DNA of 34,641 nucleotides from a virus. The stretch lies in the IMG/VR virus record IMGVR_UViG_3300032242_001991, positions 1 to 34,641 of that record; one strand, written 5' to 3'. The notes under the pieces are model-generated. The model searched no databases and was not told the DNA's origin. It saw nothing but the letters and a program-made list of their open reading frames with translations. Shown here piece by piece: positions 3,736 through 34,641 of this stretch. How positions within the stretch are numbered: the first letter of the stretch is position 1; each line of letters starts with the position of its first letter. The translations under genes and the position numbers were made by a program.

Positions 3736-3935
3736 AACTAAACGAACTTGTTAGAAGCCTAGACACTTGGACTAGCCGTGAAGAACGTGCTATGCTAGAA
3801 GGTCTTAAAGGTTTGGTTTCTATGAAAACATTTGCAGAACACGAGCGTTTCATAATTGAAGGCTTGATCAGGAAAAGTCTTGTAATTAAAGTACAGGGCA
3901 ACAATAATGAAACTTACATCTACCCAAATACCTAA
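3732..3935 (+). CDS. Small phage protein of unknown function
   Basis: 67 residues. It has mostly helical charged sequence (LVRSLDTWTSREERAMLEGL) and a C-terminal segment GLIRKSLVIKVQ followed by NNNETYIYPNT that may be a beta hairpin, resembling a small winged-helix-like domain. The start overlaps the previous gene by four bases. No function recognised. Confidence 0.6.
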   Translation: MKLNELVRSLDTWTSREERAMLEGLKGLVSMKTFAEHERFIIEGLIRKSLVIKVQGNNNETYIYPNT

Positions 3936-4362
3936 TATGGATTCGGAAAAGCTAGAAGCACAGATATACGACATGGCCGTAAGAAGCGGCATGTTTGTGC
4001 CTATCAATGCTAGATCTACCAAATACAAAAACTACATGATCGTCCGAGGACCTGATGACATGTGGAATGTGTTCCTAATGCCTAAAAAAATACTAGTAGC
4101 TACAACTTATCTAAAAGTATCAGCGTTTGCCATAGCAAAACTGCATGATAAGAAGGCAGTTACACGCATTGATGAGATTGAAAAAGAAGACAAGCGTTTT
4201 CAAAAAAACTATACAGATTCTGTATTTTACAAAAATACCATGAAAGTAGCCAAAGATTACGTTACTAAAGACACAGCACTTTGGCGCTGGGAACTAGTAA
4301 CCGAACAGGTCAAAGATGCTAAGAGCCGAATAGACGGCATCTTCTATGCATCGCTGAGATAA
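3907..4362 (+). CDS. Conserved phage-type protein of unknown function
   Basis: Up to 151 residues. Two starts are possible. ATG 3907 overlaps the previous gene by 29 bases and has an AGGG 8-12 bases upstream. ATG 3937 starts one base after the previous stop and gives 141 residues but has no visible Shine-Dalgarno. The protein has a central beta-type stretch (YMIVRGPDDMWNVFLMP, about 46-62) and a C-terminal helical, Lys-rich half with FYKNTMKVAKDYVTKDTALWRWEL. No enzyme motif is visible. Its stop is part of a late-promoter box. The family is probably shared among T4-like aquatic phages (recollection). Confidence 0.65.
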   Translation: MKLTSTQIPNMDSEKLEAQIYDMAVRSGMFVPINARSTKYKNYMIVRGPDDMWNVFLMPKKILVATTYLKVSAFAIAKLHDKKAVTRIDEIEKEDKRFQKNYTDSVFYKNTMKVAKDYVTKDTALWRWELVTEQVKDAKSRIDGIFYASLR

Positions 4363-6363: not shown

Positions 6364-6384
6364 CTCTATAATGGAGTGTTTACA

Positions 6385-8073
6385 ATGGCTGTAGTCCAAA
6401 TATCACGAGTACAAGTACGCAGAGGGCGTAAAAATGCAGGAACAAGTGTTCCTCAGCTGGCCAGCGGAGAAATAGGCTGGGCTATAGATAGTCAAGAGTT
6501 GTTTATCGGTAATGGCAGTATTCAAGAAGGTGCTCCTTACGTGGGTAACACTAAGATTCTTACTGAACATGACAACATTCTTGATCTAGCACTACAGTAT
6601 GAATACAAGCGTACACTAGGCACTATTCAAACAGGGCCAACTGCCGGTACTCCAATTCAGCGCACATTCCAACAACGTCTTGATGATACAGTCAGCACTA
6701 GAAGTTTTGGTACAGTAGGAGATGGTTCTTACAATGTATCTACTGATGCTTATACATTCACTACAGATGATACTGCGGCACTACAACGAGCAATTGATCA
6801 ATTGTATCTAAACGGTGTACCTGCAGGTGAACATGTTTCTGAATCAAATAGAATTGTTTTAAACATTGAGCCCGGAATCTATAAGATCAGTGCTAGTATC
6901 AAAGTCCCACCTTATGCAGTTCTTAAAGGTGCAGGCAAAGACAAAACAATCATTGTACAAACTGCTGATGCTCCTGTGTTCCAAACTGTTGGAAGTCCAA
7001 CATTGGGTGTTGCAGGATATGTTTCACTGATCAACATGACCACTTCTAATCAGCCGCAGTTTATAGATGTCAGCGGTATGACACTAAGAACCACTACTTC
7101 GATGGCTCCTGTAATGATTTTAGATTCTACAGTAAACTCTAATTTCAGCAATATTAAGTTTCAAAGCTCATTTGACCTAATAGCAAGTACTAAACATGAA
7201 TATGACTCGTGCGTACAATTACGTGCGACCAGCGGAGTAATCACTAGTAAAGATAATGTGTTTACTGAATGTGATTTTGTCAATGCCAGCTATGCTATCA
7301 ACAGCACCTATGACATAGTATCAAATACTTTTGATAATTGTTTATTTTATAATCTAGGTGAAGGTGTATTATTTGGTCAAGCTACTGATCCCTACATACC
7401 TGGACAACAAGAAGGACCACGCAATAATTCATTTTTAAACTCACGTTTTGATCTAATCAATGAACACGGAATCAATATTATTGCAGGTAGAAATAATTTA
7501 TCACAGGGTAACAAATATCTTAAAGTGGGCAACGACGGTGGTAACAGTTCTACTGCCGCGTATAGCGTAATAAACTTTGGACAAGGTAGTAATCTTAGTG
7601 ATAATGACTATTTCCAACGTGCAGAAGAATTGACCAATAAAGCAGGATTCCAAGACTATCAATATATCAGCGAAGTTAGTGGTGTTGCCCACAGCAATCA
7701 CAAGTATAATTTGCAAGTGGCTATCCAGGCTAGTGCAATTAACAGCACATTTGCTCGTTTACCAGGCAATGCAAGTTCAAGAATTAATTTGCACTATATC
7801 TATAGCAGTCAAAGTACTATGGTAGTACGTCATGGAACTTTATACATCACTGTTGACAAATTTAATAATGCTGTTAAATTGACTGATGAATATGATGTCA
7901 CAGGTAATCCGGCAAGATTTGAAAGTTTATCATTTACTGCAACACTACAAGATCAACCAGTACCGCCTGCTATTGTTGGAGACGGCAATGCAGAAACTGT
8001 GTATGTAAAGTATACAAACTCCACTGGCATCGAATCTGGTTACATTAATTATTGGTACGAAATATTAAGTTAA
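6385..8073 (+). CDS. Tail spike / fibre with Mtd-like N-terminus and pectate-lyase-type beta helix
   Basis: 562 residues from ATG 6385. An upstream in-frame GTG at 6376 is rejected because GGAG at 6373-6376 is correctly spaced for 6385. Residues 1-65 (AVVQISRVQVRRG, LASGEIGWAIDSQELFIGNGS) match the virion-attachment N-domain common to aquatic phage fibres (Mtd_N-like). From about 105 the sequence SFGTVGDG followed by DDTAALQRAID is the entry to a pectate-lyase-3 right-handed beta helix, which fills most of the protein with short repeated Asn-rich turns. Residues 470-562 are a beta-rich tip that probably contacts the host. Likely receptor binding or capsule degradation. A typical late gene. 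Confidence 0.88.
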   Translation: MAVVQISRVQVRRGRKNAGTSVPQLASGEIGWAIDSQELFIGNGSIQEGAPYVGNTKILTEHDNILDLALQYEYKRTLGTIQTGPTAGTPIQRTFQQRLDDTVSTRSFGTVGDGSYNVSTDAYTFTTDDTAALQRAIDQLYLNGVPAGEHVSESNRIVLNIEPGIYKISASIKVPPYAVLKGAGKDKTIIVQTADAPVFQTVGSPTLGVAGYVSLINMTTSNQPQFIDVSGMTLRTTTSMAPVMILDSTVNSNFSNIKFQSSFDLIASTKHEYDSCVQLRATSGVITSKDNVFTECDFVNASYAINSTYDIVSNTFDNCLFYNLGEGVLFGQATDPYIPGQQEGPRNNSFLNSRFDLINEHGINIIAGRNNLSQGNKYLKVGNDGGNSSTAAYSVINFGQGSNLSDNDYFQRAEELTNKAGFQDYQYISEVSGVAHSNHKYNLQVAIQASAINSTFARLPGNASSRINLHYIYSSQSTMVVRHGTLYITVDKFNNAVKLTDEYDVTGNPARFESLSFTATLQDQPVPPAIVGDGNAETVYVKYTNSTGIESGYINYWYEILS

Positions 8074-8529: not shown

Positions 8530-10857
8530 ATGACAACAATAACAGTAACAAAAAGAAGTGGTTTAAAAGAGCCACTAACAATCGACAAATGGCAGACACA
8601 GATTGCAAAGGTTTGTAGCGGTATAGCTGACGTAAGTCAGAGTATGATCGAAATCAAAGCACAGCCACACTTTTACGACGGTATCACAACACAAGAAATT
8701 GACGAAATAACTCTACGTGCTATCGTGGACCTAATCGATGTAGAATCAAATCCCGACATTGGACACACCAACTATCAATATGTAGCAGGCAAGCAACGTC
8801 TTAGTATGCTACGCAAAGATGTATATGGCTCCTACGAGCCTCCCCACCTTTATGAAATAGTTAAGAAGAATGTCTCAACCGGGTTGTATACACAAGAATT
8901 ACTAAACTGGTATACAGAAGAAGATTGGAATAAGATGAATGACATGCTGGATCATGAAAAAGATGAAGAGTATGGATACGCAAGCATCGAACAACTAATC
9001 GAAAAATACCTAGTGCGTAATCGCGCCACAAAGGAAATTTATGAAACCCCTCAAGTACGTTACATGGTCGCAGCCGCAACAGTCTTCCACAAAGAAGAAC
9101 CTAACACAGCTCGTATGCGATTTATCAAAGAATATTACCAGGCAGCTAGCGACGGCTTATTCACTTTGGCTACTCCTGTTCTTGCTGGTCTGGGGACTCC
9201 TACCAAGCAGTTCAGCAGTTGCGTCCTCATCAGATCAGACGACGACCTAGATAGTATCTTTGCCTCTGGCGAGATGATGGCCAAGTATGCTAGTAAACGT
9301 GCCGGCATTGGTTTGGAGATAGGACGTCTACGTCCATTAGGTAGTCCCATTAGAGGTGGAGAAATCATGCACACCGGTATGATCCCATTCTTGAAAAAGT
9401 GGTTCGGTGATCTACGCTCATGTTCACAAGGAGGCATTCGTAATGCTAGTGCTACAGTATTTTATCCCATTTGGCACCATCAGTTTGATGACCTTATTGT
9501 GCTTAAAAACAATCAGGGTACAGAAGAAACACGGGTTAGACACATGGACTATGGTGTTGTGTTATCCGCCTTTTTCTGGAGACGATTTAAAAACAAAGAA
9601 GATATAACATTCTTTGATCCCAATGAAGTACCAGACTTGTATGAAGCATTCTACAAAAATACAGAACTATTTGAAGAGCTGTATGTAAAGTATGAAAAGC
9701 GTAAAGACCTACGCAAGAAAACCATGTCCGCAGAAGAAGTATTCAAGTCGGGCATACTGAAAGAGCGCACTGATACAGGGCGTATCTATCTAGTGTTCAT
9801 TGACAACGTCATGAACCAGGGTCCGTTTGACCCAGAGTATCACACTATCTATCAGAGTAACCTATGCTGTGAAATCCTATTACCTACTAAATCTTTCAAG
9901 CGGCTTGATGATGCTGATGGCCGCATTGCTCTTTGCACACTCGGCTCGATCAACTGGGGAGCATTCCGTAATCCAGAAGACATGCGCCGTGCTTGCCGCA
10001 TTTTACAGCGCAGTCTATGCAACATACTTGATTACCAGGATTTCCTAAGTATTCAAAGTAAACTAAGCAATGACGAAATACAGCCATTAGGTATTGGTGT
10101 TACTAATCTTGCCTATTGGCATGCCAAGCGTGGTTTCAAGTATGGTGAAAAAGACGCCCTACAAGATGTTAAGGCATGGATGGAACACCAAGCGTACTAT
10201 TTGACAGAAGCCACAGTTGAACTGGCCAAAGAACGTGGCGCCTGCTTACACAGTGAAAAGACACGCTACGGACAAGGCATATTCCCCTGGGAGACACGTG
10301 CCAAAGGTTCAAATGAACTAGCAGACTTTACTCCTGAACTAGATTGGGAAACGCTACGTGGTAATATGAAGCAGTATGGTGTACGTAATGCTACACTAAT
10401 GGCCATTGCTCCAGTTGAAAGCTCAAGTGTTGTTATAAACAGTACCAACGGCATAGAAATGCCTATGAGCTTGATTAGTGTTAAGGAATCAAAAGCAGGA
10501 TCATTTGTACAAGTTGTTCCCGAGTATCATAAACTTAAGAGCAAGTATCAAATGATGTGGGATCAGAAAGACTGCGATGGCTATTTGAAAACTGCGGCTG
10601 TACTAGCGGCCTATGTTGATCAATCAATTAGCACAAACACATTTTACAATCCAGCACACTTTGCGGATCGTAAAGTGCCAACTACATTGATCGCTAAAAA
10701 TCTAATGCAAGCCCATGCATGGGGATTGAAAACATTCTACTACAGTTTGATTAACAAGCAAGGTAGTAAGGCCAAAGAAGAACTTGTACAAAGTGTTGCA
10801 CAGACTTATGTAGAAGTTGACTTTGACGAAGAAGACTGCGAGGCATGTAAACTATAA
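8530..10857 (+). CDS. nrdA: Ribonucleoside-diphosphate reductase alpha subunit, class Ia
   Basis: 775 residues from ATG 8530 (an in-frame TTG at 8515 is less likely). It reduces ribonucleoside diphosphates to deoxyribonucleotides for phage DNA synthesis. The N-terminal ATP cone is present (ITVTKRSGLKEPLTIDKW). Active-site residues are all visible: Cys231 in FSSCVLI, and Asn444, Cys446, Glu448 in SNLCCEI. The radical-transfer Tyr pair is in GLKTFYYS, and the C-terminal cysteine pair is in CEACKL, shorter than the CESGACKI of E. coli. Length and motif order match E. coli NrdA throughout. It is followed with a one-base overlap (TAATG) by an aldolase gene, then nrdB and glutaredoxin, a probable single operon. 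Confidence 0.97.
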   Translation: MTTITVTKRSGLKEPLTIDKWQTQIAKVCSGIADVSQSMIEIKAQPHFYDGITTQEIDEITLRAIVDLIDVESNPDIGHTNYQYVAGKQRLSMLRKDVYGSYEPPHLYEIVKKNVSTGLYTQELLNWYTEEDWNKMNDMLDHEKDEEYGYASIEQLIEKYLVRNRATKEIYETPQVRYMVAAATVFHKEEPNTARMRFIKEYYQAASDGLFTLATPVLAGLGTPTKQFSSCVLIRSDDDLDSIFASGEMMAKYASKRAGIGLEIGRLRPLGSPIRGGEIMHTGMIPFLKKWFGDLRSCSQGGIRNASATVFYPIWHHQFDDLIVLKNNQGTEETRVRHMDYGVVLSAFFWRRFKNKEDITFFDPNEVPDLYEAFYKNTELFEELYVKYEKRKDLRKKTMSAEEVFKSGILKERTDTGRIYLVFIDNVMNQGPFDPEYHTIYQSNLCCEILLPTKSFKRLDDADGRIALCTLGSINWGAFRNPEDMRRACRILQRSLCNILDYQDFLSIQSKLSNDEIQPLGIGVTNLAYWHAKRGFKYGEKDALQDVKAWMEHQAYYLTEATVELAKERGACLHSEKTRYGQGIFPWETRAKGSNELADFTPELDWETLRGNMKQYGVRNATLMAIAPVESSSVVINSTNGIEMPMSLISVKESKAGSFVQVVPEYHKLKSKYQMMWDQKDCDGYLKTAAVLAAYVDQSISTNTFYNPAHFADRKVPTTLIAKNLMQAHAWGLKTFYYSLINKQGSKAKEELVQSVAQTYVEVDFDEEDCEACKL

Positions 10858-11513
10858 TGCTAGAAACAATCTGTGACATAATGGTAGACGCTTATAAGCG
10901 TAATTGGATTACTAGTCGTGATGGCAATGTAAGTATTCGTCACCACGACCGTGATCACTTTTATATTACACCCAGCGGTGTACGTAAGCAGACACTACAA
11001 CCTGATCAGTTTAAAAAGATTAAAATTTGGAGAACGATTAATAGTGGCGTAGGCACGGGTGCTTTTAATTATAATTATGAAGAATTAGAGTATACTGACA
11101 TAAGCGCCAATTTAAAACCTAGTGGAGAGATTCCCCTACACTTTGGATTGCAAAAAGAAATGGGACAGCACAGTGGAGAAGTTCGTGTTGTAGTACACGT
11201 ACATCCAACTTACTGTATTGCCGCTATGCATGCCGGTATTGACCTTAGTAAGATCAGCGATGCGTTTCCAGAACTAAATCGTTATACTAAGGTAGCACCT
11301 AACGTACCAGACGTACCCCCGATTAGTCAAGAGCTAGCTGACCAGTGTCATAAAAATTTGCGGTTAGATCGAGATGGTAACATTGCCTATGATATAGTAG
11401 GCATCAAAGGACACGGTGTAGTTGCTATTGATACAAGCCCGTGGCGTGCCTATGAGCACATAGAAAGATTAGAACACATTTGCAAGATAGTACTTGCTTC
11501 AGGAAAATATTAA
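10857..11513 (+). CDS. Class II aldolase/adducin-family protein
   Basis: 218 residues with the class II aldolase fold: WITSRDGNVSIR at about 17-28, ITPSGVRK near 37-44, SGEIPLHFGL near 88-97, VVHVHPTYC near 110-118, and IKGHGVVAID near 181-190. The metal-binding histidines (HVH, and His in GHG) and the catalytic Glu of SGE are all retained, so it is probably an active zinc enzyme such as a sugar-phosphate aldolase or epimerase. The substrate cannot be read from sequence. It starts on the last base of nrdA and ends just before nrdB, so it is co-translated with ribonucleotide reductase; a link to sugar or deoxysugar supply is inference. A Tyr/Asn insert near 63-72 lies between core segments. 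Confidence 0.88.
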   Translation: MLETICDIMVDAYKRNWITSRDGNVSIRHHDRDHFYITPSGVRKQTLQPDQFKKIKIWRTINSGVGTGAFNYNYEELEYTDISANLKPSGEIPLHFGLQKEMGQHSGEVRVVVHVHPTYCIAAMHAGIDLSKISDAFPELNRYTKVAPNVPDVPPISQELADQCHKNLRLDRDGNIAYDIVGIKGHGVVAIDTSPWRAYEHIERLEHICKIVLASGKY

Positions 11514-22384: not shown

Positions 22385-24256
22385 ATGAGCAAAGTCATCG
22401 GTATCGATTTAGGTACAACAAATTCATGCGTATCCATTATTGAAAATGGAGTTTCAAAAGTAATCGAAAATAGCGAAGGCGCACGTACTACACCAAGTAT
22501 TGTTGCATACGCTAATAACGAAATCCTAGTAGGCGCAAGCGCAAAGCGTCAAGCAGTAACAAACCCAAAAAACACAATCTATGCGGCAAAGCGTTTGATC
22601 GGACGTAAGTTCGAAGAACAGGCTGTGCAAAAAGACATTGACTTGATGCCTTATTCTATTGTCAAAGCAGACAATGGTGATGCATGGGTTGAAGTTAATG
22701 GCGACAAACTAGCACCTCCACAAATTAGTGCAGAAGTGTTACGTAAAATGAAAAAGACAGCGGAGGATTATCTTGGTACAACAGTTACACAAGCGGTTAT
22801 CACAGTTCCTGCGTACTTTAACGACAGCCAAAGACAGGCAACTAAAGACGCTGGTAAAATCGCCGGCTTGGAAGTACTCCGTATTATTAACGAGCCTACT
22901 GCGGCAGCTCTTGCTTATGGCGTTGATAAAGCTGATAAAAGAGATAGGAAAGTTGCTGTTTACGACCTTGGTGGTGGTACATTCGACGTATCAATCATTG
23001 AAATTGCGAATGTCGAAGGCGATAAGCAAATCGAAGTACTAAGCACTAACGGAGATACATTCCTAGGTGGTGAAGATTTTGACCAACGCATCATGGACTA
23101 TCTAGTTGACGAGTTCAAGAAAGAAAGCGGAGTTGATCTAAAGAACGATATCCTTTCCCTACAGCGTTTGAAAGAAGCCGCTGAAAAGGCCAAGATTGAA
23201 TTGTCAAGTTCTGCAAGTACAAGCGTTAACTTGCCATACATCACAGCAGACGCAAGTGGTCCTAAGCACATGAACATTACTATTAGCCGTAGCAAGTTAG
23301 AACAACTTGTTGACGAACTAATCACTCGTTCAATCGAGCCATGTAAGACTGCTATGAAAGACGCAGGCGTTACAGCCGCTGACATCGACGAAGTTATCCT
23401 TGTTGGTGGTATGACTCGTATGCCAAAGGTACAGGAAACTGTAGAGAAGTTGTTTGGCAAGGCACCACGTAAGGATGTTAACCCAGACGAAGCAGTTGCG
23501 GCGGGTGCGGCTATCCAAGGTGCTGTTCTAGCAGGTGATCGTAATGACGTTCTATTGCTTGACGTCACACCACTATCATTGGGTATTGAAACAATGGGCG
23601 GTGTAATGACTAAGTTGATTCAAAAGAATACAACTATCCCAACTAAGCACTCACAAGTGTTCTCAACAGCAGAAGACAATCAGCCTGCGGTAACAATCAA
23701 AGTATTCCAAGGTGAACGTGAACTAGCACAGTACAACAAGGCTCTGGGCGAGTTTAACCTAGAAGGTATTCCTCCGGCACGTCGTGGTATGCCACAAATT
23801 GAAGTTACACTAGACATCGATGCTAACGGTATCTTGAATGTAAGTGCCAAGGATAAGAACACTGGCAAAGAAAACAAGATCACTATCAAGGCAAACTCAG
23901 GTCTAAGCGATGCAGAGATACAACAAATGATCCGTGACGCAGAAGCCAATGCTGAAGAAGATAAAAAGACAGTAGAACTAGTAACTGCACGTAACACCGC
24001 AGAAGCACAAGTACACTCAATCCGTAAGGATCTAGAAGAAGTAAAAGACAAGTTAACAGCTGAACAGGTAACCAAGATTGAGGAAGCCGCTACAGCAGTT
24101 GACGAAGCAATCAAAGGCACAGACAAAGAAGCTATGACGCAGAAGGTCAGTGACTTGTATGCCGCGGCACAGCCTTTAATGGAAGCCAAAGCACAACCTC
24201 AGCCGCAAACAGGTGAACCAGAAACTGTTAACGCTGAGTTTACAGAAACTGTCTAA
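22385..24256 (+). CDS. dnaK: Hsp70 chaperone DnaK, full length
   Basis: 623 residues. The nucleotide-binding domain has all signatures: [11 protein letters not shown] at 6-16, [14 protein letters not shown] near 190, [12 protein letters not shown] near 337. The substrate-binding domain contains [20 protein letters not shown] and [17 protein letters not shown]-type sequence, followed by a complete helical lid ([11 protein letters not shown] onward). The C-terminus is Gln/Pro-rich and ends NAEFTETV, without the EEVKDKK tail of E. coli. Overall wording resembles betaproteobacterial DnaK, suggesting host origin. No dnaJ or grpE is in the window, so host co-chaperones are presumably used. It may fold virion proteins, serve IscU through LPPVK, or both. 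Confidence 0.97.
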
Positions 24257-24325: not shown

Positions 24326-24754
24326 ATGACACAACTAAGAACTATGGACGCGGCCGCTCTTGCCCATCTAAGTAGAGCACTAATCGGTTTTGATCGCATT
24401 TTTAATGAAGTTGAAAATCGAACACAAACCAACAACTATCCTCCATTTAATATCATCAAACGCAGTGATAGTCTTTTTGAGATAGAACTTGCTGTTGCAG
24501 GTTTTAACAAAGAAGAGCTTACTGTAGAGATTGATCAGGATCAGTTGATCATTCGTGGCCAAAAAGCCTATTCAGAAGCTGAACCAGAATACCTACATCG
24601 TGGGTTAGCGGCTCGCGACTTTGAAAGAACATGGACGCTAGCTGATCATATGGAAGTGGACGAAGTGGAGTTGACTAACGGTATATTAAGTGTTAAAATA
24701 ACACGTATGATACCTGAAGCACTTAAACCACGTTTGATTGCCATTAAGGGTTAA
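24326..24754 (+). CDS. Small heat-shock protein, Hsp20/IbpA-like
   Basis: 142 residues. The N-terminal region contains LIGFDRIFNEVENR, as in IbpA-type proteins. The alpha-crystallin domain runs from YPPFNIIKRSDSLFEIELAVAGFNKEEL (about 38-65) through LIIRGQKA to a C-terminal GILSVKITRMIPEALKP. It holds aggregating proteins for DnaK-assisted refolding. It follows dnaK behind a hairpin and a copy of the dnaK leader, suggesting common control of the two chaperones. Phage Hsp20 proteins are known in T4-like aquatic phages; the pairing with full-length DnaK is less usual. Confidence 0.94.
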   Translation: MTQLRTMDAAALAHLSRALIGFDRIFNEVENRTQTNNYPPFNIIKRSDSLFEIELAVAGFNKEELTVEIDQDQLIIRGQKAYSEAEPEYLHRGLAARDFERTWTLADHMEVDEVELTNGILSVKITRMIPEALKPRLIAIKG

Positions 24755-25122: not shown

Positions 25123-25676
25123 GCCTAAAAGAACTAACGCACGAAGCACATCGTAATGCTGAAACACAACCTTTTGTTAAGGTTTTATTCTCAGGTAAAA
25201 TTAGTCCTAAGTTATATGCAACATACTTGAAGAATCAACACCCCTGTTATGAGATTCTTGAAGTGTGTGCTATGCCTCATGGATTATTGAATGATTATCC
25301 AGAAGTTCGTAGAGCACCACTGATATTATCAGACTTCCAAGAACTGTGGAATGAAGAAGATAGTACTCCGCCAATCTGCGAAGCTACTAATAGATACATC
25401 AAATACATTCTTAGTATTAAAGACGATCCTAAGAAACTTCTTGCACATTTGTATGTTAGACACTTTGGAGACTTATCTGGTGGACAAATGATTGCTAAAC
25501 GTGTTCCCGGACAAGGCCGCATGTACCAGTTTGGTGATGATCCAGAAACTATTAAAAATATCCTACGTGCTAAACTAGACGACAGCCTAGCAGAAGAAGC
25601 AAAAGTATGTTTTCAATATGCCGCTGACTTATTTGCAGATATGATGCAGTTTGTGGAGCCGGCTAATGAGCAGTAA
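25119..25676 (+). CDS. Heme oxygenase
   Basis: 185 residues, a short HO-1-type heme oxygenase. The proximal heme ligand is His11 in EAHRNAE. The distal-helix signature HLYVRHFGDLSGGQMIAKRV near residues 107-126 matches the YxGDLSGGQ motif of the family. It would open heme to biliverdin, releasing iron and CO, with electrons from ferredoxin or another donor. Overlapping clpS by four bases and followed by an overlapping bilin reductase, it forms a two-step bilin pathway. The released iron may also feed the Fe-S assembly genes (inference). Confidence 0.95.
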   Translation: MSLKELTHEAHRNAETQPFVKVLFSGKISPKLYATYLKNQHPCYEILEVCAMPHGLLNDYPEVRRAPLILSDFQELWNEEDSTPPICEATNRYIKYILSIKDDPKKLLAHLYVRHFGDLSGGQMIAKRVPGQGRMYQFGDDPETIKNILRAKLDDSLAEEAKVCFQYAADLFADMMQFVEPANEQ

Positions 25677-26349
25677 CGTATGGGATACGCTAATTAAAAT
25701 TCAAGAATATCTTGAGTCAAAATTTTACGCAACAGGCAGTATTATACACGAACCAGGAATGGATCGTTTTAATCAGCCTGGATGGGTAAACAAAGTATGG
25801 ATGAGCAGTCGTTATCGTCGTGCTCACATTGACGTAGTAGATGCCCGTGAAACAAAAGGACTATGGATGATGCATTGTTGCATCTTCCCACATACTCATA
25901 ACCCTGCTCCTATTTTTGGGTTTGATGTTATAGCTGGCAAAAATAAGATCACTGGCTGTTTTATTGACTACAGTCCTGCTGGTGACAAAGAACATCCTAT
26001 GATCGAATACTTTGGGGAAGAAGTAGGTCGTTATGAGTGGAATAAAAAGCGTAAACTTCCTGAGTGGGCAGAGCGTATTTTTAGTGAGCATATGGTTGCC
26101 GCAGGTAATGTCAGTGACGAAAACGAATTAAAACAACTCACAAGTCTAGCACACATTCTAATTAATCATTATCTAGAGTGTGTAGATGAGACTAACAAAA
26201 CAGCCAATGATACTTCAGAATCGCAGAATTATTACTGCGAAAATCAGAAACAAAATCCGCATACACCTAAAGTTATGGTTAGTTTAGGGCTAAGTGAGGA
26301 TGATGTACAGGTGTTTATACACGATTGTTTGTTCCCTGAAATCCGCTAA
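25666..26349 (+). CDS. Ferredoxin-dependent bilin reductase (PcyA/PebS/PcyX-like)
   Basis: 227 residues from ATG 25666, with GGAG eight bases upstream; an in-frame TTG at 25651 is rejected. The core LWMMHCCIFPHTHNPAPIFGFDVIAG matches the FDBR family (PF05996). Asp87 in FGFDVIAG corresponds to the catalytic Asp of PcyA/PebS. FIDYSPAG and the C-terminal half (EWAERIFSEHMVA; LINHYLECV) also fit. It reduces biliverdin from the adjacent heme oxygenase to a phytobilin. Length is close to that of the short phage-type enzymes (PcyX, PebS). Product and electron count cannot be read from sequence. No phycobiliprotein or lyase gene is seen. Confidence 0.9.
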   Translation: MSSNVWDTLIKIQEYLESKFYATGSIIHEPGMDRFNQPGWVNKVWMSSRYRRAHIDVVDARETKGLWMMHCCIFPHTHNPAPIFGFDVIAGKNKITGCFIDYSPAGDKEHPMIEYFGEEVGRYEWNKKRKLPEWAERIFSEHMVAAGNVSDENELKQLTSLAHILINHYLECVDETNKTANDTSESQNYYCENQKQNPHTPKVMVSLGLSEDDVQVFIHDCLFPEIR

Positions 26350-27829: not shown

Positions 27830-27855
27830 AAAAAGACACTTAGGTGTCTTTTTTT
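27830..27855 (+). terminator. Rho-independent terminator
   Basis: Stem AAAAAGACAC / GTGTCTTTTT around loop TTAG, followed by a T run to 27855. It lies 22 bases after the preceding stop and separates it from the curli-like block. Confidence 0.88.
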
Positions 27856-27887
27856 ATGTGCTAATGTTATATTTGTTTACTCTAGAT

Positions 27888-27893
27888 TAAATA
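27888..27893 (+). promoter_or_regulatory. T4-type late promoter box for the curli-like block
   Basis: TTAAATACTATTA. Predicted start near 27899, 23-base leader, GGGAG before ATG 27922. Confidence 0.6.
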
Positions 27894-27921: not shown

Positions 27922-28461
27922 ATGAAAAAAATATTATCAACAGTGGGATTCTTGTTGGCCGTGACAGCCACCGCAGCCCCATTGGGGGATTATCAGTTTA
28001 AAAGTCCATCATTTAATGGTGTTGGTTACAGTAGTCATGTTTTAACTATTGAAAATCAAGAGGCAACTAGACAAAAAGCAAGAGATGACAAAATACAATC
28101 AGCACTAGATAAAGCAGCCGCAGATGCAAAGAACACAAACTTAGCTAAGTTTTTAAACAACTTAGAATCGCGTATCTATGCACAGATTAGTCAGAACGTA
28201 GCAACAGCTATGTTTGCCAATAACAGTTGTAATGTATCTACAGATTCCAACTGTTCTGGAGCAATATCATTCCAAGGTAGCAATATTGCTTGGTCAAGAG
28301 TTAATGATGCTACCAACTGCGTTGGGTCTTCAAACGGAACTTGTATTGTTTTGAGAGTCTCGGACCCAACAGTTAAAGATCCAAAGAACGCATTATGTAG
28401 TGACCCGGGAATGAGTTGTATATACGTTCCATTAGAATCATTTAACATGCCAGGGAACTAA
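27922..28461 (+). CDS. csgF: CsgF-like curli assembly factor
   Basis: 179 residues. A signal peptide (MKKILSTVGFLLAVTATAA) is followed at once by LGDYQFKSPSFNGVGYSSHVL, the CsgF signature (YxFxNPSFGG in classical members) that plugs into the CsgG pore. A helical stretch (IENQEATRQKARDDKIQSAL) and FLNNLESRIYAQISQNV follow, then a beta domain with three Cys-containing turns. Known CsgF lies at the mouth of CsgG and links it to the nucleator subunit. It precedes csgG by two bases. The cysteine-containing C-terminal domain differs from E. coli CsgF. Confidence 0.83.
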   Translation: MKKILSTVGFLLAVTATAAPLGDYQFKSPSFNGVGYSSHVLTIENQEATRQKARDDKIQSALDKAAADAKNTNLAKFLNNLESRIYAQISQNVATAMFANNSCNVSTDSNCSGAISFQGSNIAWSRVNDATNCVGSSNGTCIVLRVSDPTVKDPKNALCSDPGMSCIYVPLESFNMPGN

Positions 28462-28463
28462 TA

Positions 28464-29765
28464 ATGAAAAAAGTATTACTATCCCTATCAGTAGTAGCAA
28501 TGTTAAGCGGATGTGCTGTGATACAAAGCACCGGGTTGTCTGAAGCTGATCCTACAGTAACAACACAGCGTGATAATGTAAAAAAAGAATTTGATACATT
28601 ACCAGCGCCTGCAACAGGTCGTCCAGTTAGTGTGGCAGTTTATAGTTTTGCAGATAAAACAGGCCAAAGACGTCCACAGGCTAACGTGGCCAGTTTGAGT
28701 TCAGCAGTAACACAGGGTGCTGAAACATTCCTGATACAGGCATTACAAGGTGTTGGACAAGGACATTGGTTTGAAGTTGTTGAGCGTGTGGGTATCGATA
28801 ACTTGACTAAAGAACGCTTAATCATTCGTCAAATGCGTGAAGCATACGAAGGAAACAATGCTAAACCTCTAATGCCCATGCAGTTTGCTGGCATGATCAT
28901 CGAAGGTGGTATTGTAGGCTACGATACTACTGTTAACAGTGGTGGCGCTGGTATGCGTATTTTTGGTATTGGCAAACAAACACAATGGAGCCAAGATACT
29001 GTAACTGTTAGTGTTAGAGCAGTTAGTGTAAACACAGGTAAAGTTCTAGCAGTAGTAACAGTACAAAAGACTATTTTATCAACAGCAGATTCAGCAACAG
29101 CATTAAAGTTCTTTGATGCTGGCACACAGGCATTTGAAGCAGAAGCAGGTTTAACTATTAACGAACCGGGTACTTATGCAGTTAAGGCAGCGATTGAAAT
29201 GGCAGTAGTAGAGCTAATCAAAGAAGGGCAACGTAAATCTATTTGGGATTTTAAACCAACTCCGCCTATTCCGGTTGTTGACATGTCAATCCCAACAAAA
29301 CCTATTGTACAACCTATAGTGATATCGTCAGAAATAAGAAAACCTGAGGAGAAAAAAGATGAGTTGGTTCAAACGCAAACCCCCAAAACACCCGCCCCTG
29401 CAGAAGACACACCCGCAGTCGCACCACAGCAGTCCGATGGCGGAAAAGTACCTGCAGGAGTCGAAGGAAAAAGTGAAACCCCTAAAGAAGAAAAACTAGT
29501 AGTAACAGAAATGCAAACAGGTTTAAAACCAAATGAAAATAAAATGGCACAAGATGCTTCTAAAGCATTGTATGACAAAGTAAAACTAAAAGAAAATGCA
29601 TTTTTATATTCTGAACCAAAAGATACTAGCATTAAAAAGTGGTGGTATTCTAAAGGAACAGAACTAAGTCTTAGACAACCGGGAACAGATGGTTGGTGGA
29701 GAGCAATAGTAACAGATGGTACTGATCGAGGCGGTTGGATACAATCTGAAAAGTTAGAAAAATAA
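28464..29765 (+). CDS. csgG: CsgG-like outer-membrane secretion pore with C-terminal SH3-like extension
   Basis: 433 residues; E. coli CsgG has 277. Lipobox LSGC with Cys17. Core about 50-265: VSVAVYSFADKTGQRRP, EVVERVGIDNLTKERLIIR, IIEGGIVGYDTTVNSGGAGMRIFGIG, VSVRAVSVNTGKVL, and WDFK at the end, all matching the nonameric curli pore. After the core come a Pro/Glu/Thr linker (about 270-355) and a beta-rich domain (about 365-433, LKENAFLYSEP, KGTELSLRQPG, WWRAIV, GGWIQSEKL) resembling bacterial SH3, which often binds cell wall. A separate ORF with a strong Shine-Dalgarno is nested in the linker at 29359-29499. It secretes curlin-type subunits, presumably the two encoded downstream. Confidence 0.92.
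   Translation: MKKVLLSLSVVAMLSGCAVIQSTGLSEADPTVTTQRDNVKKEFDTLPAPATGRPVSVAVYSFADKTGQRRPQANVASLSSAVTQGAETFLIQALQGVGQGHWFEVVERVGIDNLTKERLIIRQMREAYEGNNAKPLMPMQFAGMIIEGGIVGYDTTVNSGGAGMRIFGIGKQTQWSQDTVTVSVRAVSVNTGKVLAVVTVQKTILSTADSATALKFFDAGTQAFEAEAGLTINEPGTYAVKAAIEMAVVELIKEGQRKSIWDFKPTPPIPVVDMSIPTKPIVQPIVISSEIRKPEEKKDELVQTQTPKTPAPAEDTPAVAPQQSDGGKVPAGVEGKSETPKEEKLVVTEMQTGLKPNENKMAQDASKALYDKVKLKENAFLYSEPKDTSIKKWWYSKGTELSLRQPGTDGWWRAIVTDGTDRGGWIQSEKLEK
29359..29499 (+). CDS. 46-residue ORF nested in the csgG linker in another frame
   Basis: ATG 29359 is preceded by GAGGAG (29346-29351) seven bases upstream, one of the strongest Shine-Dalgarno matches in the window. It ends at TAG 29497-29499. The product begins MSWFKRKPPKH, is rich in Lys, His and Pro, and contains SSPMAEKYLQESKEK, a helix-like end followed by KPLKKKN. 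The basic, compact sequence looks like a real small phage protein. Proteins starting MSWFKRKP with an SPxxEK helix are recalled from other T4-like phages (not verified). CsgG in the overlapped region is low complexity, suggesting that one frame was overprinted on the other. Confidence 0.55.
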   Translation: MSWFKRKPPKHPPLQKTHPQSHHSSPMAEKYLQESKEKVKPLKKKN

Positions 29766-29767
29766 GT

Positions 29768-29830
29768 GGTGTTGTTTTTTTAACAGTGTAAATTTTTTAA
29801 CACCTAGAGGTAACGATATTTTAACAGCGG
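29768..29830 (+). promoter_or_regulatory. Upstream region of the first curlin gene with three TTTTAACA repeats
   Basis: The octamer TTTTAACA occurs at 29778-29785, 29795-29802 and 29819-29826 between csgG and the curlin gene. GGTGTT (29768-29773) and AACACC (29799-29804) could pair across the first two copies. Possible regulator-binding or RNA element. Confidence 0.35.
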
Positions 29831-29855
29831 CATATAATTTCTGAAAGGGCCGGCT

Positions 29856-29861
29856 TAAATA
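29856..29861 (+). promoter_or_regulatory. T4-type late promoter box
   Basis: TTAAATATTTTA. Predicted start near 29867, 31-base leader with AAAGGAG before ATG 29898. Confidence 0.55.
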
Positions 29862-29897
29862 TTTTAAAGGGAATAACAAATCCCAAAGGAGCGTACT

Positions 29898-30887
29898 ATG
29901 TTAAACTATCATAGTATGATGAAGAAGATGAAGAAAAGAATGACAGGCGTTGGTGGGTTGTCGAGAAAATTACTCACCGTAATGTTATTGAGTGCCTCAG
30001 CCATAAGTTGGGCCGCAGACAATAGCGTATACATCGACCAAGCGGGCGATAACAGTACTATCACAGTAACACAAGATGGAGCAGGTAACAAGGTTAATGG
30101 TATCCTAAACAACGGACAGCCAAGCACTAACCCACAAGACCCTGCTAAACTTGTAGGCAGTATCCAAACAGTTACTATTGATCAAGCTGGCCCAAACAAC
30201 AAGCTATCAATAGGTTTAAACACTACAGTTGGAACTAATGGTAAAGGTATTGATGTTAACTACAAAGTTGATGTAGGCGGAAATATAGCATATATCAACA
30301 GCAATAATAACGGCATTGGTGTTAGTTCTAGTAACTTGATTGATATTATTCAATTAGGTGGCAATGCAGTTACCAATGTGAATATGTTAGGAAACACTAA
30401 TAGTTTAACAGTTAGATCTAGTGGTGGCGGCGGTAACAAAATTGATGCTACTATAGAAGCAAACAATGTTGTTGCTGTCGTAAATCAAACACTAGGTGGT
30501 GGTAACGAAACTACTCTTAATCTAACAGGTGATAAGGGATATGTAAATGTTACCAGCACTGGTGCAACTAACTTGACTAATGTAACTCAAAGCGGCGGAT
30601 CAACTAATGGCAGTAGTGTTAACATTGTATTAGACGGACAAGGGAATCAAACTACTGTTAGTCAAAGCGGTGTTAATGATAACACAGTTGATTACAAAGT
30701 ATTTGGATCAAATAACATTGCTAGTATTACACAAAGCGGCGGTCTAACTATTGGACAGTATGCCAAAGCTGATATTGCTGGATCTAATAACGATATTGGT
30801 ATAACACAGCAAGGCAGTGTAGACAACGCGGCCAATATTAAAATAACCGGAAGTTACAACACATACAGAATCTTACAGAAGAACTAA
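29898..30887 (+). CDS. Curlin-repeat amyloid-type subunit (CsgA/CsgB-like)
   Basis: 329 residues. A basic N-terminal extension rich in Met/Lys precedes a signal peptide ending in ISWA, with cleavage before ADNSVY. The mature part is made of Asn/Gln/Gly/Ser-rich repeats of the curlin type: NSVYIDQAGDNSTITVTQDGAGN near 44-66, TVTIDQAGPNNKLSI, TNVTQSGGSTNGSS, TTVSQSGVNDN, ASITQSGG, IGITQQGS. The xxxQxGxxN spacing would build a beta-solenoid amyloid. It is longer than E. coli CsgA (151) and has a long central insert (about 105-170) with few Gln. Own late promoter, so strong late expression is likely. Probably secreted by CsgG. Confidence 0.88.
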   Translation: MLNYHSMMKKMKKRMTGVGGLSRKLLTVMLLSASAISWAADNSVYIDQAGDNSTITVTQDGAGNKVNGILNNGQPSTNPQDPAKLVGSIQTVTIDQAGPNNKLSIGLNTTVGTNGKGIDVNYKVDVGGNIAYINSNNNGIGVSSSNLIDIIQLGGNAVTNVNMLGNTNSLTVRSSGGGGNKIDATIEANNVVAVVNQTLGGGNETTLNLTGDKGYVNVTSTGATNLTNVTQSGGSTNGSSVNIVLDGQGNQTTVSQSGVNDNTVDYKVFGSNNIASITQSGGLTIGQYAKADIAGSNNDIGITQQGSVDNAANIKITGSYNTYRILQKN

Positions 30888-30888
30888 T

Positions 30889-31062
30889 ATGTTTGAAAGC
30901 GAACTACAAAGGATGTACCAACAATGGATGCAAGGCAACGAAAACTACATCCGTGATTGGGCAACCTTTGTAGAGCAAGCCGCTAGATGGCAAAACACTA
31001 CCGGCGATGTTATCATGAGAGAGTTACAAAAATATACTTGGTTCGAATGGGGGGACAGATGA
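30889..31062 (+). CDS. 57-residue protein between curlin and FecR-domain genes
   Basis: ATG 30889 lies one base after the curlin stop; TGA 31060-31062 overlaps the next start (ATGA). The product begins MFESELQRMYQQWMQGNENY and is helical and aromatic-rich (RDWATFVEQAAR; QKYTWFEWGDR), with no signal peptide. The tight coupling on both sides argues that it is real. Function unknown; a cytoplasmic partner for the curli-like proteins is one possibility. Confidence 0.7.
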   Translation: MFESELQRMYQQWMQGNENYIRDWATFVEQAARWQNTTGDVIMRELQKYTWFEWGDR

Positions 31063-32171
31063 AAATATGGACAGCCGCACTATGCTTACTGTTGCTAGGT
31101 ACCTCGCCGAGTCACGCCGTAATAGGCAAGGTAACAGAACAGATCAACACCCCTCCCAGCATACAGAGGGACAAACAAACACTAACGGGCTCCAAGGGCA
31201 CGGGAGTGGAAATGAACGATGCGATCAAGACACAACAAGGCAAGGTAGGGATAACATTTGAGGATGATACTCGTGTGCAGGTTAACGAGAACTCAAAGCT
31301 AGTCATTGACGATTTTGTTTACGATCCTAAATCAAAAGCTGGCAAGCTGGGTGCTAAGATTGCGCTTGGTACTGTTCGATATGCCTCAGGACAGATTGCT
31401 AAGAATAGCCCGCAGAATGTTGCTCTTAATACGCCTACTGCTACAATCAGCGTTCGTGGTACTGACTTTACAGCTAGTGTGGACGAATTGGGGCAAAGTA
31501 CTGTAATTTTATTACCTAGTTGTCCCGATGATCGCAACAAGAGCAGAACCAAAAACGATATAGAAAAAAACTGTAAGGTCGGAGAAATATCAGTTGAAAC
31601 AGATGCTGGTATTGTGATCCTTAATCAAGCCTTCCAAGCTACGCAAGTGAACAGTCGTAGCATGCCTCCAACAAAGCCAGTGATACTAAACTTGTCAGAA
31701 GATGCTATTGGCAATATGCTGTTGTTAAGTCCTCCTAAAGAACTTAAAGAATCAGGCAAGGGTGAGAAGATGGGAAGTAAGAGTTTCCTCGATGTTGACT
31801 TCTTGAAAGAAAAAGGTTTAGAAAATGCGCTTGAAGCACAGTTGGCCAACATGTATGTTGATCGTTTGGCACAAAACTTTTTAGATAATCAGTTTCTTGC
31901 TAATATATTTGATATGATTGGCAACGGCTTAAATGAAAACTTGCTAGCAGAAGTAGACAGCGTGTTACCCGACTATAAAAAATCCAGCGGTATTATTGCT
32001 GTTAAAGATGATATATCAGTCAGCTTATGCAGAGATAACGGCAGTGATCAACAATGCATAACAACGCCACTAACACAAAACAGTTTAATCTACCAAACAC
32101 AGGGAAGTTTAGAGTTTAAGAATCGTGTTAATCAGGGCGGTAATACAATCATTACTATTGTACAAAAATGA
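31059..32171 (+). CDS. Exported FecR-domain protein
   Basis: 370 residues from ATG 31059 (four-base overlap with the preceding gene; an upstream in-frame start at 30987 lies inside that gene and is rejected). Signal peptide MKIWTAALCLLLLGTSPSHA. Residues about 40-160 form a FecR-type beta domain: GVEMNDAIKTQQGKVGITFEDDTRVQVNENSKLVID, GTVRYASGQ, and TPTATISVRGTDFTASV. The C-terminal half is helical (about 240-310) and then ends in beta sequence. The classical FecR anti-sigma helix is missing, so this is a periplasmic or surface FecR domain, not a sigma regulator. Its position suggests a role with the fibres. It overlaps the next gene by four bases. Confidence 0.85.
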   Translation: MKIWTAALCLLLLGTSPSHAVIGKVTEQINTPPSIQRDKQTLTGSKGTGVEMNDAIKTQQGKVGITFEDDTRVQVNENSKLVIDDFVYDPKSKAGKLGAKIALGTVRYASGQIAKNSPQNVALNTPTATISVRGTDFTASVDELGQSTVILLPSCPDDRNKSRTKNDIEKNCKVGEISVETDAGIVILNQAFQATQVNSRSMPPTKPVILNLSEDAIGNMLLLSPPKELKESGKGEKMGSKSFLDVDFLKEKGLENALEAQLANMYVDRLAQNFLDNQFLANIFDMIGNGLNENLLAEVDSVLPDYKKSSGIIAVKDDISVSLCRDNGSDQQCITTPLTQNSLIYQTQGSLEFKNRVNQGGNTIITIVQK

Positions 32172-33505
32172 TAAGAATGAATTCAACCCAAGCAATAGTT
32201 GAAGCCGCTCGACGCAGACAACAACTAAAAGAACAACAAGAGCGAAGTAGATTCCATAAGGGGTTATTAATGCTTGTTTCATTTTGGTTATTTTTATTTT
32301 TACCAATGATATTATTTTCAGGTAAGGCTCGCGCCACTGGGCTAGCAGATTTGAAGTTTGGTCAGTATCAAGTAGCTGACAGCCAATGGAATACTGGCGC
32401 TTGCTTATACACATCAACTTGCGAAATATACAGTAAGAATCCTGGAACAGCATACAAAGTACCTTGGTGGAGTGGGCAAGTAAACTGGGCCGCCGGAGAC
32501 TATATTGCTTTCACTGCTACAGGCAATGCAACAAATCCGTGGAACGCTATTCAGTATACCGCTAACGGTACAATGAAAGATACTATAGGAACAGGACACA
32601 TTATCAATATGGGTCCAAATTATTTTTTCTTTGTTGGAAATGATAACGACACAGGTCAGCTGTTTAGTATGACTAAGGGCTTCTCTGATTCAAGTGGGGT
32701 TACTTGGACGGGTACATTAAATCCGTCAACTCAACAGGTTAATGATTATGCAGCCAATGGTAGTACAACACCACTAGCAGCCGGACAATCGGCTAGTGCA
32801 GGACCGCCACCTCCACCTCCTCCACCACCTTTTGACGGAACTATCACTCAATCTAATGCTCCAAGTAATCAAGTTATCGGCACTGGATCATCTTATATTG
32901 CACCTTCAGATGCTAGCAGTAAACAAGATAGAGTAAACACTTGGAAAAATAGTACACAACCATACAACAATATGTTATACATTGATCAAGTGGGGCAGGG
33001 CCATACAGTGAATGTAACACAATCTGGGACTAAGAATAAAATAGACATGACTATTAACGGTAACGGCGATAATATCACTGATACACAAACTGGGTCTAAC
33101 TACTTAAAGATAGATGTACCAGGTTGGGGCAATGTTATAACAACTACACAGACTAGTAATACTGGCTCTAACTATGCCGAAACAAAAATACAAAGTAATG
33201 GAAATACTGTTAATCATACGCAGACTGGCAATCAAGTTTTGTTTAGTAAAATAAATGGAGACATTAATACTCTTAATACTTCGCAAACTGGCACAGGCAA
33301 TCATGTAGCAGATGTTACTCTTACAGGCAGCGGAAATAATGCTACAATTGGTCAAACTGGTAACGTTGGAAATAAAGCCAATATTGATTTAACCAATGCC
33401 GGTGGTCCTGCCATACTAGATATACAACAAAGTGGTGGCAAATCATTTACCATTATACAAGGCTGTGCAAATCCAGCAGGATGCAATACTGTAGTACGAC
33501 AGTGA
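32168..33505 (+). CDS. Second curlin-repeat protein with N-terminal domain and polyproline linker
   Basis: 445 residues. A charged helix ([20 protein letters not shown]) precedes a long hydrophobic signal or anchor (about 33-51) ending near ARATG. Residues 57-215 form a Trp/Thr/Gly-rich beta domain. A run of nine Pro (about 216-224) separates it from the C-terminal curlin repeats (about 265-435): [60 protein letters not shown]. The first repeat strongly resembles that of the curlin at 29898 (YIDQ.G followed by VTQ.G..NK). It could be a nucleator or anchored minor subunit, as CsgB is for CsgA (inference). Confidence 0.85.
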
Positions 33506-33511
33506 TAAATA
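33506..33511 (+). promoter_or_regulatory. T4-type late promoter box
   Basis: GATAAATATTAG right after the stop at 33505. Predicted start near 33517, 15-base leader, CAGGAGGA before ATG 33532. Confidence 0.6.
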
Positions 33512-33531
33512 TTAGTCAGGAGGACACAACC

Positions 33532-33690
33532 ATGAAGCAGAAAAAGTTAATAACTAAACTGTACAGGGCTTGCGTCGACCACGATGCCGAGAAACAGTTT
33601 GAACTTCGCAAGAAGGAATTCGCCAAAATCTTGAAACACAAGGCCGAAGGCAAACCATTCACACACAAATGGACTGTAGTACAAGTGTAA
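33532..33690 (+). CDS. Small basic phage protein of unknown function
   Basis: 52 residues from ATG 33532 (AGGAGG nine bases upstream; an in-frame ATG at 33481 lies inside the preceding gene). Highly charged and helical: [19 protein letters not shown], then [28 protein letters not shown]. From memory small proteins with a KLY.AC..HD start and a GKPFT.KWTVV end are common in T4-like aquatic phages. Function unknown. Confidence 0.72.
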
Positions 33691-33723
33691 CGTTCTTGTA
33701 ATATCAGCAACACAATACTGCGA

Positions 33724-33729
33724 TAAATA
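33724..33729 (+). promoter_or_regulatory. T4-type late promoter box, leaderless geometry
   Basis: GATAAATAATGG. The predicted start, 33735, is exactly the A of the next ATG. No Shine-Dalgarno. Confidence 0.5.
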
Positions 33730-33734
33730 ATGGT

Positions 33735-34511
33735 ATGACGCCAAAAACTTATCGCAGTATTTTTATTTCTGACGTACACTTGGGTACTAGAGATTGTCAA
33801 GCAGACAAGCTCAACAACTTCCTCAAACACAATACCTGCGACACACTATATCTTGTAGGAGATATCATTGATGCGTGGAAAATCCAACAAAACAAATGGC
33901 GCTGGAAACAAAGCCACACCAACGTTGTCCGTAGAGTTCTGGGTCACGCTAAACGTGGCACTAGGGTTGTATACGTGGCTGGAAATCATGACGAATTCCT
34001 GCGTCCGATGATACCATATGGTTTCAGCTTTGGATCAATCGAAATTCAAAATCAAACAGAACACATTGGCGCAGACGGCAAACACTATCTGGTTACACAC
34101 GGAGACTTGTTTGATGGCATCACTCGTCTTGCCCCATGGCTTGCTTTCTTAGGTGATAAGTTATATGATTTAGTATTAGATTGGAATAGCCGTTTTAATT
34201 GGATACGCCATAAACTAGGCTTTGGTTATTGGAGCCTAAGTAAATATCTCAAGCATAAAGTTAAGAAGGCCAGCGACTTTATGTTTCAGTTCGAACGTAA
34301 TCTAGCGGCATATTGTAAAAAACGCGGCTTCGATGGTGTAATATGTGGACATATACACCACGCTGAAATTAAAGAGATTGACGGTGTCATTTATATGAAT
34401 GATGGAGACTGGGTTGAAAGCTGTACCGCCCTAGTTGAACATCACGATGGTCAATGGGAAATTGTTACATGGACAAGAGAGAATGACAAAAACAATATTA
34501 ATAATAACTGA
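33735..34511 (+). CDS. PlcP/LpxH-like metallophosphoesterase
   Basis: 258 residues with a complete calcineurin-type metallophosphoesterase site: FISDVHLGTRDCQ (about 10-22), YLVGDIIDAW (about 39-48), VAGNHDEF (about 76-83), LVTHGDLFDG (about 113-122), GHIHHAEI (about 207-214). The C-terminal MNDGDWVESCTALVEHHDGQWEI is typical of the COG2908 subgroup that includes the phospholipase C-like enzyme PlcP rather than classical LpxH. PlcP removes phospholipid head groups to give diacylglycerol, which a glycosyltransferase converts to glycolipid. The next gene is such a glycosyltransferase and overlaps by 29 bases. The enzyme class is firm; PlcP over LpxH is likely but not proven. Confidence 0.87.
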   Translation: MTPKTYRSIFISDVHLGTRDCQADKLNNFLKHNTCDTLYLVGDIIDAWKIQQNKWRWKQSHTNVVRRVLGHAKRGTRVVYVAGNHDEFLRPMIPYGFSFGSIEIQNQTEHIGADGKHYLVTHGDLFDGITRLAPWLAFLGDKLYDLVLDWNSRFNWIRHKLGFGYWSLSKYLKHKVKKASDFMFQFERNLAAYCKKRGFDGVICGHIHHAEIKEIDGVIYMNDGDWVESCTALVEHHDGQWEIVTWTRENDKNNINNN

Positions 34512-34641
34512 TAATCTCAAGGATCAAATAAACGGTGTTGTTACGACCTACAAAAATATTGAGATTTGTGCTGTTCGTGACGGTTATAACATTGTGGTGT
34601 TGGATCCCGGGTGGTTCAGCTACATTGATTGCCCTGGCTAC
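34483..34641 (+). CDS. Glycosyltransferase N-terminus (cut by window end)
   Basis: The first 53 codons of a frame open to the window end. It begins MTKTILIITDNLKDQINGVV, followed by TTYKNIEICAVRDGY and VVLDPGWFSYIDCPGY. The start with a nucleotide-fold strand and the NGVVTTYKN loop is characteristic of GT4-family (GT-B) glycosyltransferases such as Agt/SQD2-like lipid glycosyltransferases. AGAGAG lies just upstream of the ATG. The overlap with the PlcP-like gene suggests coupled synthesis. Acceptor and sugar cannot be judged from the fragment. Confidence 0.78.
   Translation, partial: MTKTILIITDNLKDQINGVVTTYKNIEICAVRDGYNIVVLDPGWFSYIDCPGY

Follow-up and report, generated by a model that had tools for sequence, protein, structure and literature searches.

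The block at positions 27922-33505 of a T4-like phage record was almost certainly a curli-type operon carried by the phage. The best reading of it, for which we see equal chances of being right and wrong, is that it would specify an adhesive surface fibre with exchangeable heads that is expressed late in infection. The record (IMG/VR IMGVR_UViG_3300032242_001991; 34,641 bp, analyzed as a whole and referred to below as the window) is probably a fragment.

Gene order of the block and comparison with known modules

The block contained, in tight packing, csgF, csgG, curlin gene 1, a 57-aa gene, fecR, and curlin gene 2 (Table 1). The open reading frames of an earlier sequence-only reading were confirmed at the positions it had assigned, and profile matches above the curated Pfam cut-offs were obtained for CsgF, CsgG, curlin protein 1, and FecR. 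The 57-aa frame was regarded as a real gene because it recurred at the same place in five relatives (L003, L009, L012, L014, and L022; 6/29 loci counting the window). The frames, the Pfam matches, and this recurrence bore out the contiguity of csgF, csgG, two repeat-protein genes, fecR, and the 57-residue gene claimed in that reading. From curlin gene 1 through curlin gene 2, the frames abutted or overlapped, suggesting that their translation is probably coupled.

Table 1. Features in and around the curli-type block of the window.
Feature	Positions	Strand	Evidence or remark
Terminator-like hairpin with T-run, dividing the block from the preceding gene	27830..27853	+	-11.1 kcal/mol, z -4.5 (folding)
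TAAATA promoter-like element ATTAAATA	27886..27893	+	36 nt upstream of csgF
csgF, predicted pore-capping factor	27922..28461	+	PF10614, E=1.3e-7
csgG, predicted outer-membrane lipoprotein pore	28464..29765	+	PF03783, 4.5e-47
C-terminal SH3-like extension of CsgG (tentative)	29580..29762	+	SH3_4, E=0.013, below cut-off
Shine-Dalgarno and immediate 9-bp hairpin, ahead of the curlin gene 1 start	29887..29918	+	18/29 loci
Curlin gene 1, candidate fibre body	29898..30887	+	Curlin_rpt PF07012, 1.4e-6, over cut-off
57-aa protein	30889..31062	+	No family match in Pfam; no signal peptide seen
FecR-domain protein, apparently exported	31059..32171	+	PF04773, 5.6e-10
Curlin gene 2, putative head-bearing subunit	32168..33505	+	18/26 orthologues match Curlin_rpt
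Variable N-terminal head of curlin gene 2, LKFGQ-type domain	32342..32788	+	Replaced or absent in some relatives
Constant C-terminal repeats of curlin gene 2 (predicted beta-solenoid)	32960..33502	+	pLDDT mostly 74-88
Next promoter-like element at the block end, GATAAATA	33504..33511	+	

When phage records were searched with the block at the DNA level, no match was returned, and protein searches were therefore used; a scan of viral contigs in this way gave 29 relatives. The locus set included several fragments or near-duplicates. All 29 loci extending beyond fecR, among which were the window, the cultured phages HTVC008M and Melnitz, and a few near-duplicates, had csgF or csgG upstream, fecR, and a gene at the position of curlin gene 2, so that the gene order proposed for comparison in the sequence-only reading was the same throughout. 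A CHASE2 adenylate cyclase gene was located 0-3.5 kb downstream of curlin gene 2 in 21 loci, and the length of this interval differed among the phages. The absence of the cyclase from the window carries no meaning, because the window stops 1.1 kb past curlin gene 2. Its last part (33505-34641) encoded a small protein and a metallophosphoesterase, likewise found in L008, L014, L015, and L019. The relatives were not firmly placed by a Gp23 search, which gave a match in 1/10 records, and a DnaK search aimed at the host gave a mixture of records with poor attribution.

The genes csgF and csgG have been reported in pelagimyophages (PMC7029224), and the order CsgF-CsgG-curlin-FecR-curlin-adenylate cyclase was described in pelagiphages in 2022, with an alphaproteobacterial origin (PMC9599517). 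The same gene order as in the window was found in HTVC008M and Melnitz. Therefore, the complete set, including FecR and both repeat proteins, which had been taken to be new, was already known. Although csgA/B were reported to be missing and CsgF to be diverged in Melnitz (PMC9004378), curlin-repeat products are annotated for two of its genes, and its CsgF retained the conserved N-terminal segment. The window resembled these modules (PMC7029224, PMC9004378, PMC9599517; NC_020484, MZ577097) in having csgF-csgG-curlin-FecR-curlin, with adenylate cyclase downstream in the relatives, but its CsgG was 42-44% identical to theirs. The clade of the window further differed in the 57-aa gene present in some members, in the CsgG extension found in approximately half of the relatives and absent from HTVC008M and Melnitz, in a larger number of head types, and in up to 3.4 kb of exchangeable genes ahead of the cyclase.

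A scan of genome contigs yielded 80 loci, mostly from Alphaproteobacteria and usually comprising csgF-csgG and several curlin genes. The phage block was similar to these operons (Sphingomonas, Erythrobacter, and others) in that csgF-csgG was followed by curlin-repeat genes, whereas most of the bacterial operons had two to four curlin genes and neither FecR nor cyclase nearby. In Hyphomonas sp. TMED17 (L037), csgF-csgG-curlin-FecR-cyclase was encoded on a 705-kb, apparently chromosomal contig. Six short contigs assigned to bacterial MAGs (L033, L034, L035, L036, L039, and L047; Rhodobacteraceae, Flavobacteriaceae, Pirellulales, and Pelagibacter) had a set like that of the phages; their length and similarity make it probable that they are misbinned phage DNA. 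The block shared the CsgG pore, the CsgF cap, and curlin repeats with the curli system of E. coli (csgBAC, csgDEFG); unlike that system, it had a second subunit with a head, different constriction residues, and no detected CsgE.

Predicted pore, apparently exported proteins, and exchangeable heads

CsgF matched PF10614 with 32.3 bits, above the Pfam cut-off of 25.8, and its N-terminal F..P.F.G.G.S.H.L..E was invariant among 25 phage sequences. We take this segment to resemble the part of E. coli CsgF that docks in CsgG. The sole PDB match of the CsgF profile was to a repeat protein and was spurious. The CsgG profile matched the solved chains of E. coli CsgG (1e-66), and its lipobox G16-C17 was invariant. 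In E. coli CsgG, the constriction residues are Tyr51/Asn55/Phe56; in the alignment with the phage profile, Gln/Ser/Leu corresponded to Tyr/Asn/Phe, and the E. coli-type residues did not occur. CsgG relatives without pore residues had been named in the sequence-only reading as evidence against it: the fold and the lipobox were kept, as was the location of the constriction loop, and the constriction residues themselves were not. The pore is therefore present, but with residues unlike those of E. coli its gating may differ; it is doubtful that the Tyr/Asn/Phe constriction of the E. coli protein defines the family.

CsgE was found in none of 12 related records by a search that was positive for the E. 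coli control, in agreement with the absence of csgE noted earlier. This absence counts against the E. coli type only, because alphaproteobacterial modules also lack CsgE (PMC9599517). With the order conserved, the core features of CsgG and CsgF kept, and both candidate substrates present, the claim of a complete phage-borne curli-type system is supported.

In curlin protein 1, the motif G-x(1,3)-N-x(4,6)-Q occurred eight times against a shuffle mean of 2.5 (p=0.006), and an apparent signal peptide was noted by eye, as were hydrophobic N-termini with AxA-like sites in the subunits. The true start of curlin gene 1 is probably at 29919 or 29928, past the hairpin in its leader. For fecR, which was conserved across all loci, the start at 31059, which overlaps the stop codon of the 57-aa gene in an ATGA, is more likely than the mechanical start at 30987. 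In the FecR protein, as read from its sequence, the FecR domain came directly after an N-terminal stretch resembling a signal peptide, and a cytoplasmic anti-sigma part ahead of a membrane helix was not encountered. The confident part of its model matched periplasmic anti-sigma domains (4m0h, 1.6e-4; PupR 6ovk, 3.6e-4). We infer that it is an exported partner of the fibre system and not an iron regulator.

Curlin protein 2 had a constant tail and an exchangeable head. Taken alone, the window protein remained below the cut-off for Curlin_rpt (0.0054); its orthologues matched at E<=0.05 in 18 of 26 cases (best 1.6e-13), and the repeat motif occurred nine times in its C-terminal part against a shuffle mean of 2.2 (p=0.0005). 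An alternative start at 32270 would give a plain signal peptide. In the model of the window protein, a linker of low confidence connected a beta domain at the N-terminus to a beta-solenoid, in which the pLDDT dropped to 61-69 at the extreme C-terminus.

The orthologues ranged from 191 to 844 aa in length, sharing the C-terminal repeats and differing in their N-terminal heads. These were of the LKFGQ type, a second unnamed domain, F5/8C, PA14, or combinations thereof (LKFGQ and F5/8C in L011, LKFGQ and PA14-like in L003, and the second unnamed domain and F5/8C in L023), or the head was missing, as in Melnitz. The PA14 and F5/8C heads exceeded the Pfam cut-off, including the PA14 match in curlin protein 2 of HTVC008M, which is annotated as hypothetical. 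The head of the window had no family match in Pfam; its LKFGQ type was also present in L003, L004, L008, L011, L014, L024, and L025. The DNA of L024 and L026 was ~90% identical to the end of fecR and again from just past curlin gene 2, and curlin gene 2 between them was replaced (35% identity at 43% coverage). The phage heads were absent from the 80 fetched bacterial loci and from other ORFs of the viral loci. Earlier reports of this modularity with head swapping are apparently lacking.

A Foldseek search with the model of curlin protein 2 gave no significant match. By VIA-align, the model was aligned with SufB-SufD (Z 16.9, rmsd 3.0, 187 aligned residues) and with tailspikes and pectate lyases (Z about 10), the head being barely covered. 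These matches concern the beta-solenoid part and imply none of the corresponding functions, and the absence of curli among the VIA-align rows excludes nothing.

Promoter-like elements and a hairpin in the curlin gene 1 leader

A consensus scan missed the terminator in front of csgF, and the hairpin was revealed by folding; similar hairpins with altered stems were located upstream of csgF in L002, L004, and L011. In 28/31 loci, the 100 nt upstream of csgF contained TAAATA, as opposed to 0/32 for csgG. Exact TATAAATA occupied the position of the csgF element in HTVC008M and L030, and AATAAATA in L019; exact TATAAATA was absent from the window. In the window, TAAATA showed a strand bias (21 versus 3), and 111 of its 268 occurrences in relatives fell in the 60 nt before gene starts (7% expected). 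In HTVC008M, for which a late sigma factor is annotated, NATAAATA preceded 11/35 structural and 0/25 replication genes (p=0.0016), with gene classes assigned from the product names of the record, and it also preceded csgF. The distribution of the motif points to late expression of the csgF block. Earlier reports of a T4-late-type TAAATA element ahead of csgF are apparently lacking, and a pelagiphage transcriptome paper (PMC12753301) makes no mention of HTVC008M. Just downstream of curlin gene 2, NATAAATA was found in many relatives. Across the window, it occurred nine times on the + strand (800, 2251, 4358, 6356, 13155, 19950, 22300, 33504, and 33722) and never on the - strand, nearly always right before a gene start.

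The leader of curlin gene 1 in 18/29 loci consisted of a Shine-Dalgarno sequence, 0-4 nt, a hairpin of 6-9 bp, usually 5-16 nt, and ATG; L007, L008, and L014 had a longer branched form. In the window, a start codon (29898) also lay inside the hairpin. There were at least nine unrelated stem sequences, with pairing kept as the stems changed: arms swapped between loci paired at 37% on average, where a locus's own arms pair fully by construction. A first per-locus shuffle test of the hairpin was too permissive (significant in 2/20) and was replaced by a constrained scan with counts on the minus strand and elsewhere in the loci. In the remainder of the 520 kb, the latter detected 26 occurrences of the Shine-Dalgarno-hairpin-ATG pattern on the + strand compared with nine on the - strand, which suggests that other genes of these phages also use the split layout. 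The same layout was seen at 3870-3909 of the window, upstream of the ORF at 3907-4362.

In T4 genes 25 and 38, a hairpin is located between the Shine-Dalgarno sequence and AUG (PMC3014915). The hairpin found here is comparable, and would likewise restore a working spacing; unlike in T4, it precedes a curlin gene and its stems vary between phages. A pairing-conserved hairpin before curlin gene 1 has apparently not been reported earlier.

Possible role of the fibre

Proposals made since 2020 for the role of curli in phages are nutrient uptake, sibling capture (PMC7029224), a block of superinfection, and the timing of lysis. The exchangeable heads and the promoter motif of the late class shift the balance toward an adhesive that faces outward and is made late. 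In the adhesive reading, the block would be an alphaproteobacterial-type curli (type VIII secretion) operon, which the phage would transcribe from csgF to the second curlin gene late in infection. In the outer membrane of the host, CsgG would form a lipoprotein pore with CsgF as its cap; the curlin and FecR proteins would reach the periplasm via Sec, and at least the curlin proteins would exit through the CsgG pore and stack as fibres. Curlin protein 1, with repeats only, would provide the fibre body. The solenoid tail of curlin protein 2 would fit the fibre, with its swappable head (PA14, F5/8C-like, or other) facing outward and binding sugars or cell surfaces. Neighbouring cells or particles would then be held near the burst by the infected cell or its debris, acting as an adhesive.

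Judged from sequence and models, late export of a fibre through CsgG is likely, and the arguments for adhesion or capture by the exchangeable heads as its purpose are evenly balanced. More tentatively, T4-like lytic phages might make a late host-surface amyloid whose second subunit has interchangeable heads, as an extracellular capture net outside the virion, with a target specificity that would evolve by gene and domain swapping like that of tail-fibre tips. Against the adhesive reading, large folded heads would have to cross a narrow pore unfolded, the usual gate CsgE is absent, and the CsgG constriction residues differ. The csgF element of the window is ATTAAATA and not the exact late promoter. 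Binding by the heads is suggested by family resemblance, and the window head had no family match. Further, no clumping was observed in Melnitz cultures (PMC9004378), although curlin protein 2 of this phage is headless.

The strongest rival, itself unlikely, is superinfection exclusion (PMC9599517), in which a fibre coat on the infected cell would mask receptors from competing phages, by the layer itself or by its heads. Surface export and swappable heads would suit such an arms race, but a coating would need no sugar-binding-like heads. The late-type promoter motif comes late for exclusion, and a superinfection block is therefore less natural than a surface role before lysis.

Uptake of nutrients or cofactors, as proposed previously (PMC7029224, PMC9599517), is improbable. 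CsgG would act as an open outer-membrane pore, in accordance with the lack of a CsgE gate, and the FecR protein would provide a link to iron; this leaves the two conserved repeat proteins, CsgF, and the head swapping unexplained, and a late-type promoter would give little time for uptake.

Still less probable is a function in lysis timing, which was proposed for Melnitz from models and synteny (PMC9004378) and would agree with the late-type promoter. CsgG/CsgF would form a pinholin- or secretin-like pore, and the remaining genes would be incidental. However, the premise of missing csgA/B fails with the two curlin proteins encoded by Melnitz, that of a diverged CsgF with its conserved N-terminus, and the lipobox indicates the outer and not the inner membrane.

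Least probable was a virion-linked fibre, also raised in the sequence-only reading, in which the repeat proteins would be part of the particle and the head-bearing one its receptor-binding fibre: the late-type motif is shared with structural genes, and the heads and their swapping recall receptor-binding proteins. This reading is disfavoured by what appear to be Sec signal peptides of the curlin and FecR proteins, by the invariant linkage to the outer-membrane export pore, and by a csgF-csgG-curlin core that bacterial operons have as well.

Elsewhere in the record, genes encoding ribonucleotide reductase, a baseplate-hub/lysozyme-like protein, endolysin, and further phage proteins were identified. 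A class II aldolase/adducin-like gene (10857-11513) was located between two ribonucleotide reductase subunit genes, and a ferredoxin-dependent bilin reductase (PF05996, 1.5e-18) was encoded at 25651-26349. A probable tail fibre or spike was encoded at 6376-8073; it combined a pectate-lyase-like domain with an N-terminal domain of the major-tropism-determinant type (PF18454, below cut-off). The record also contained a full-length DnaK gene (22385-24256; PF00012, 4.4e-259) and an adjoining Hsp20 gene (24326-24754), which are phage-borne chaperone genes near the secretion operon.
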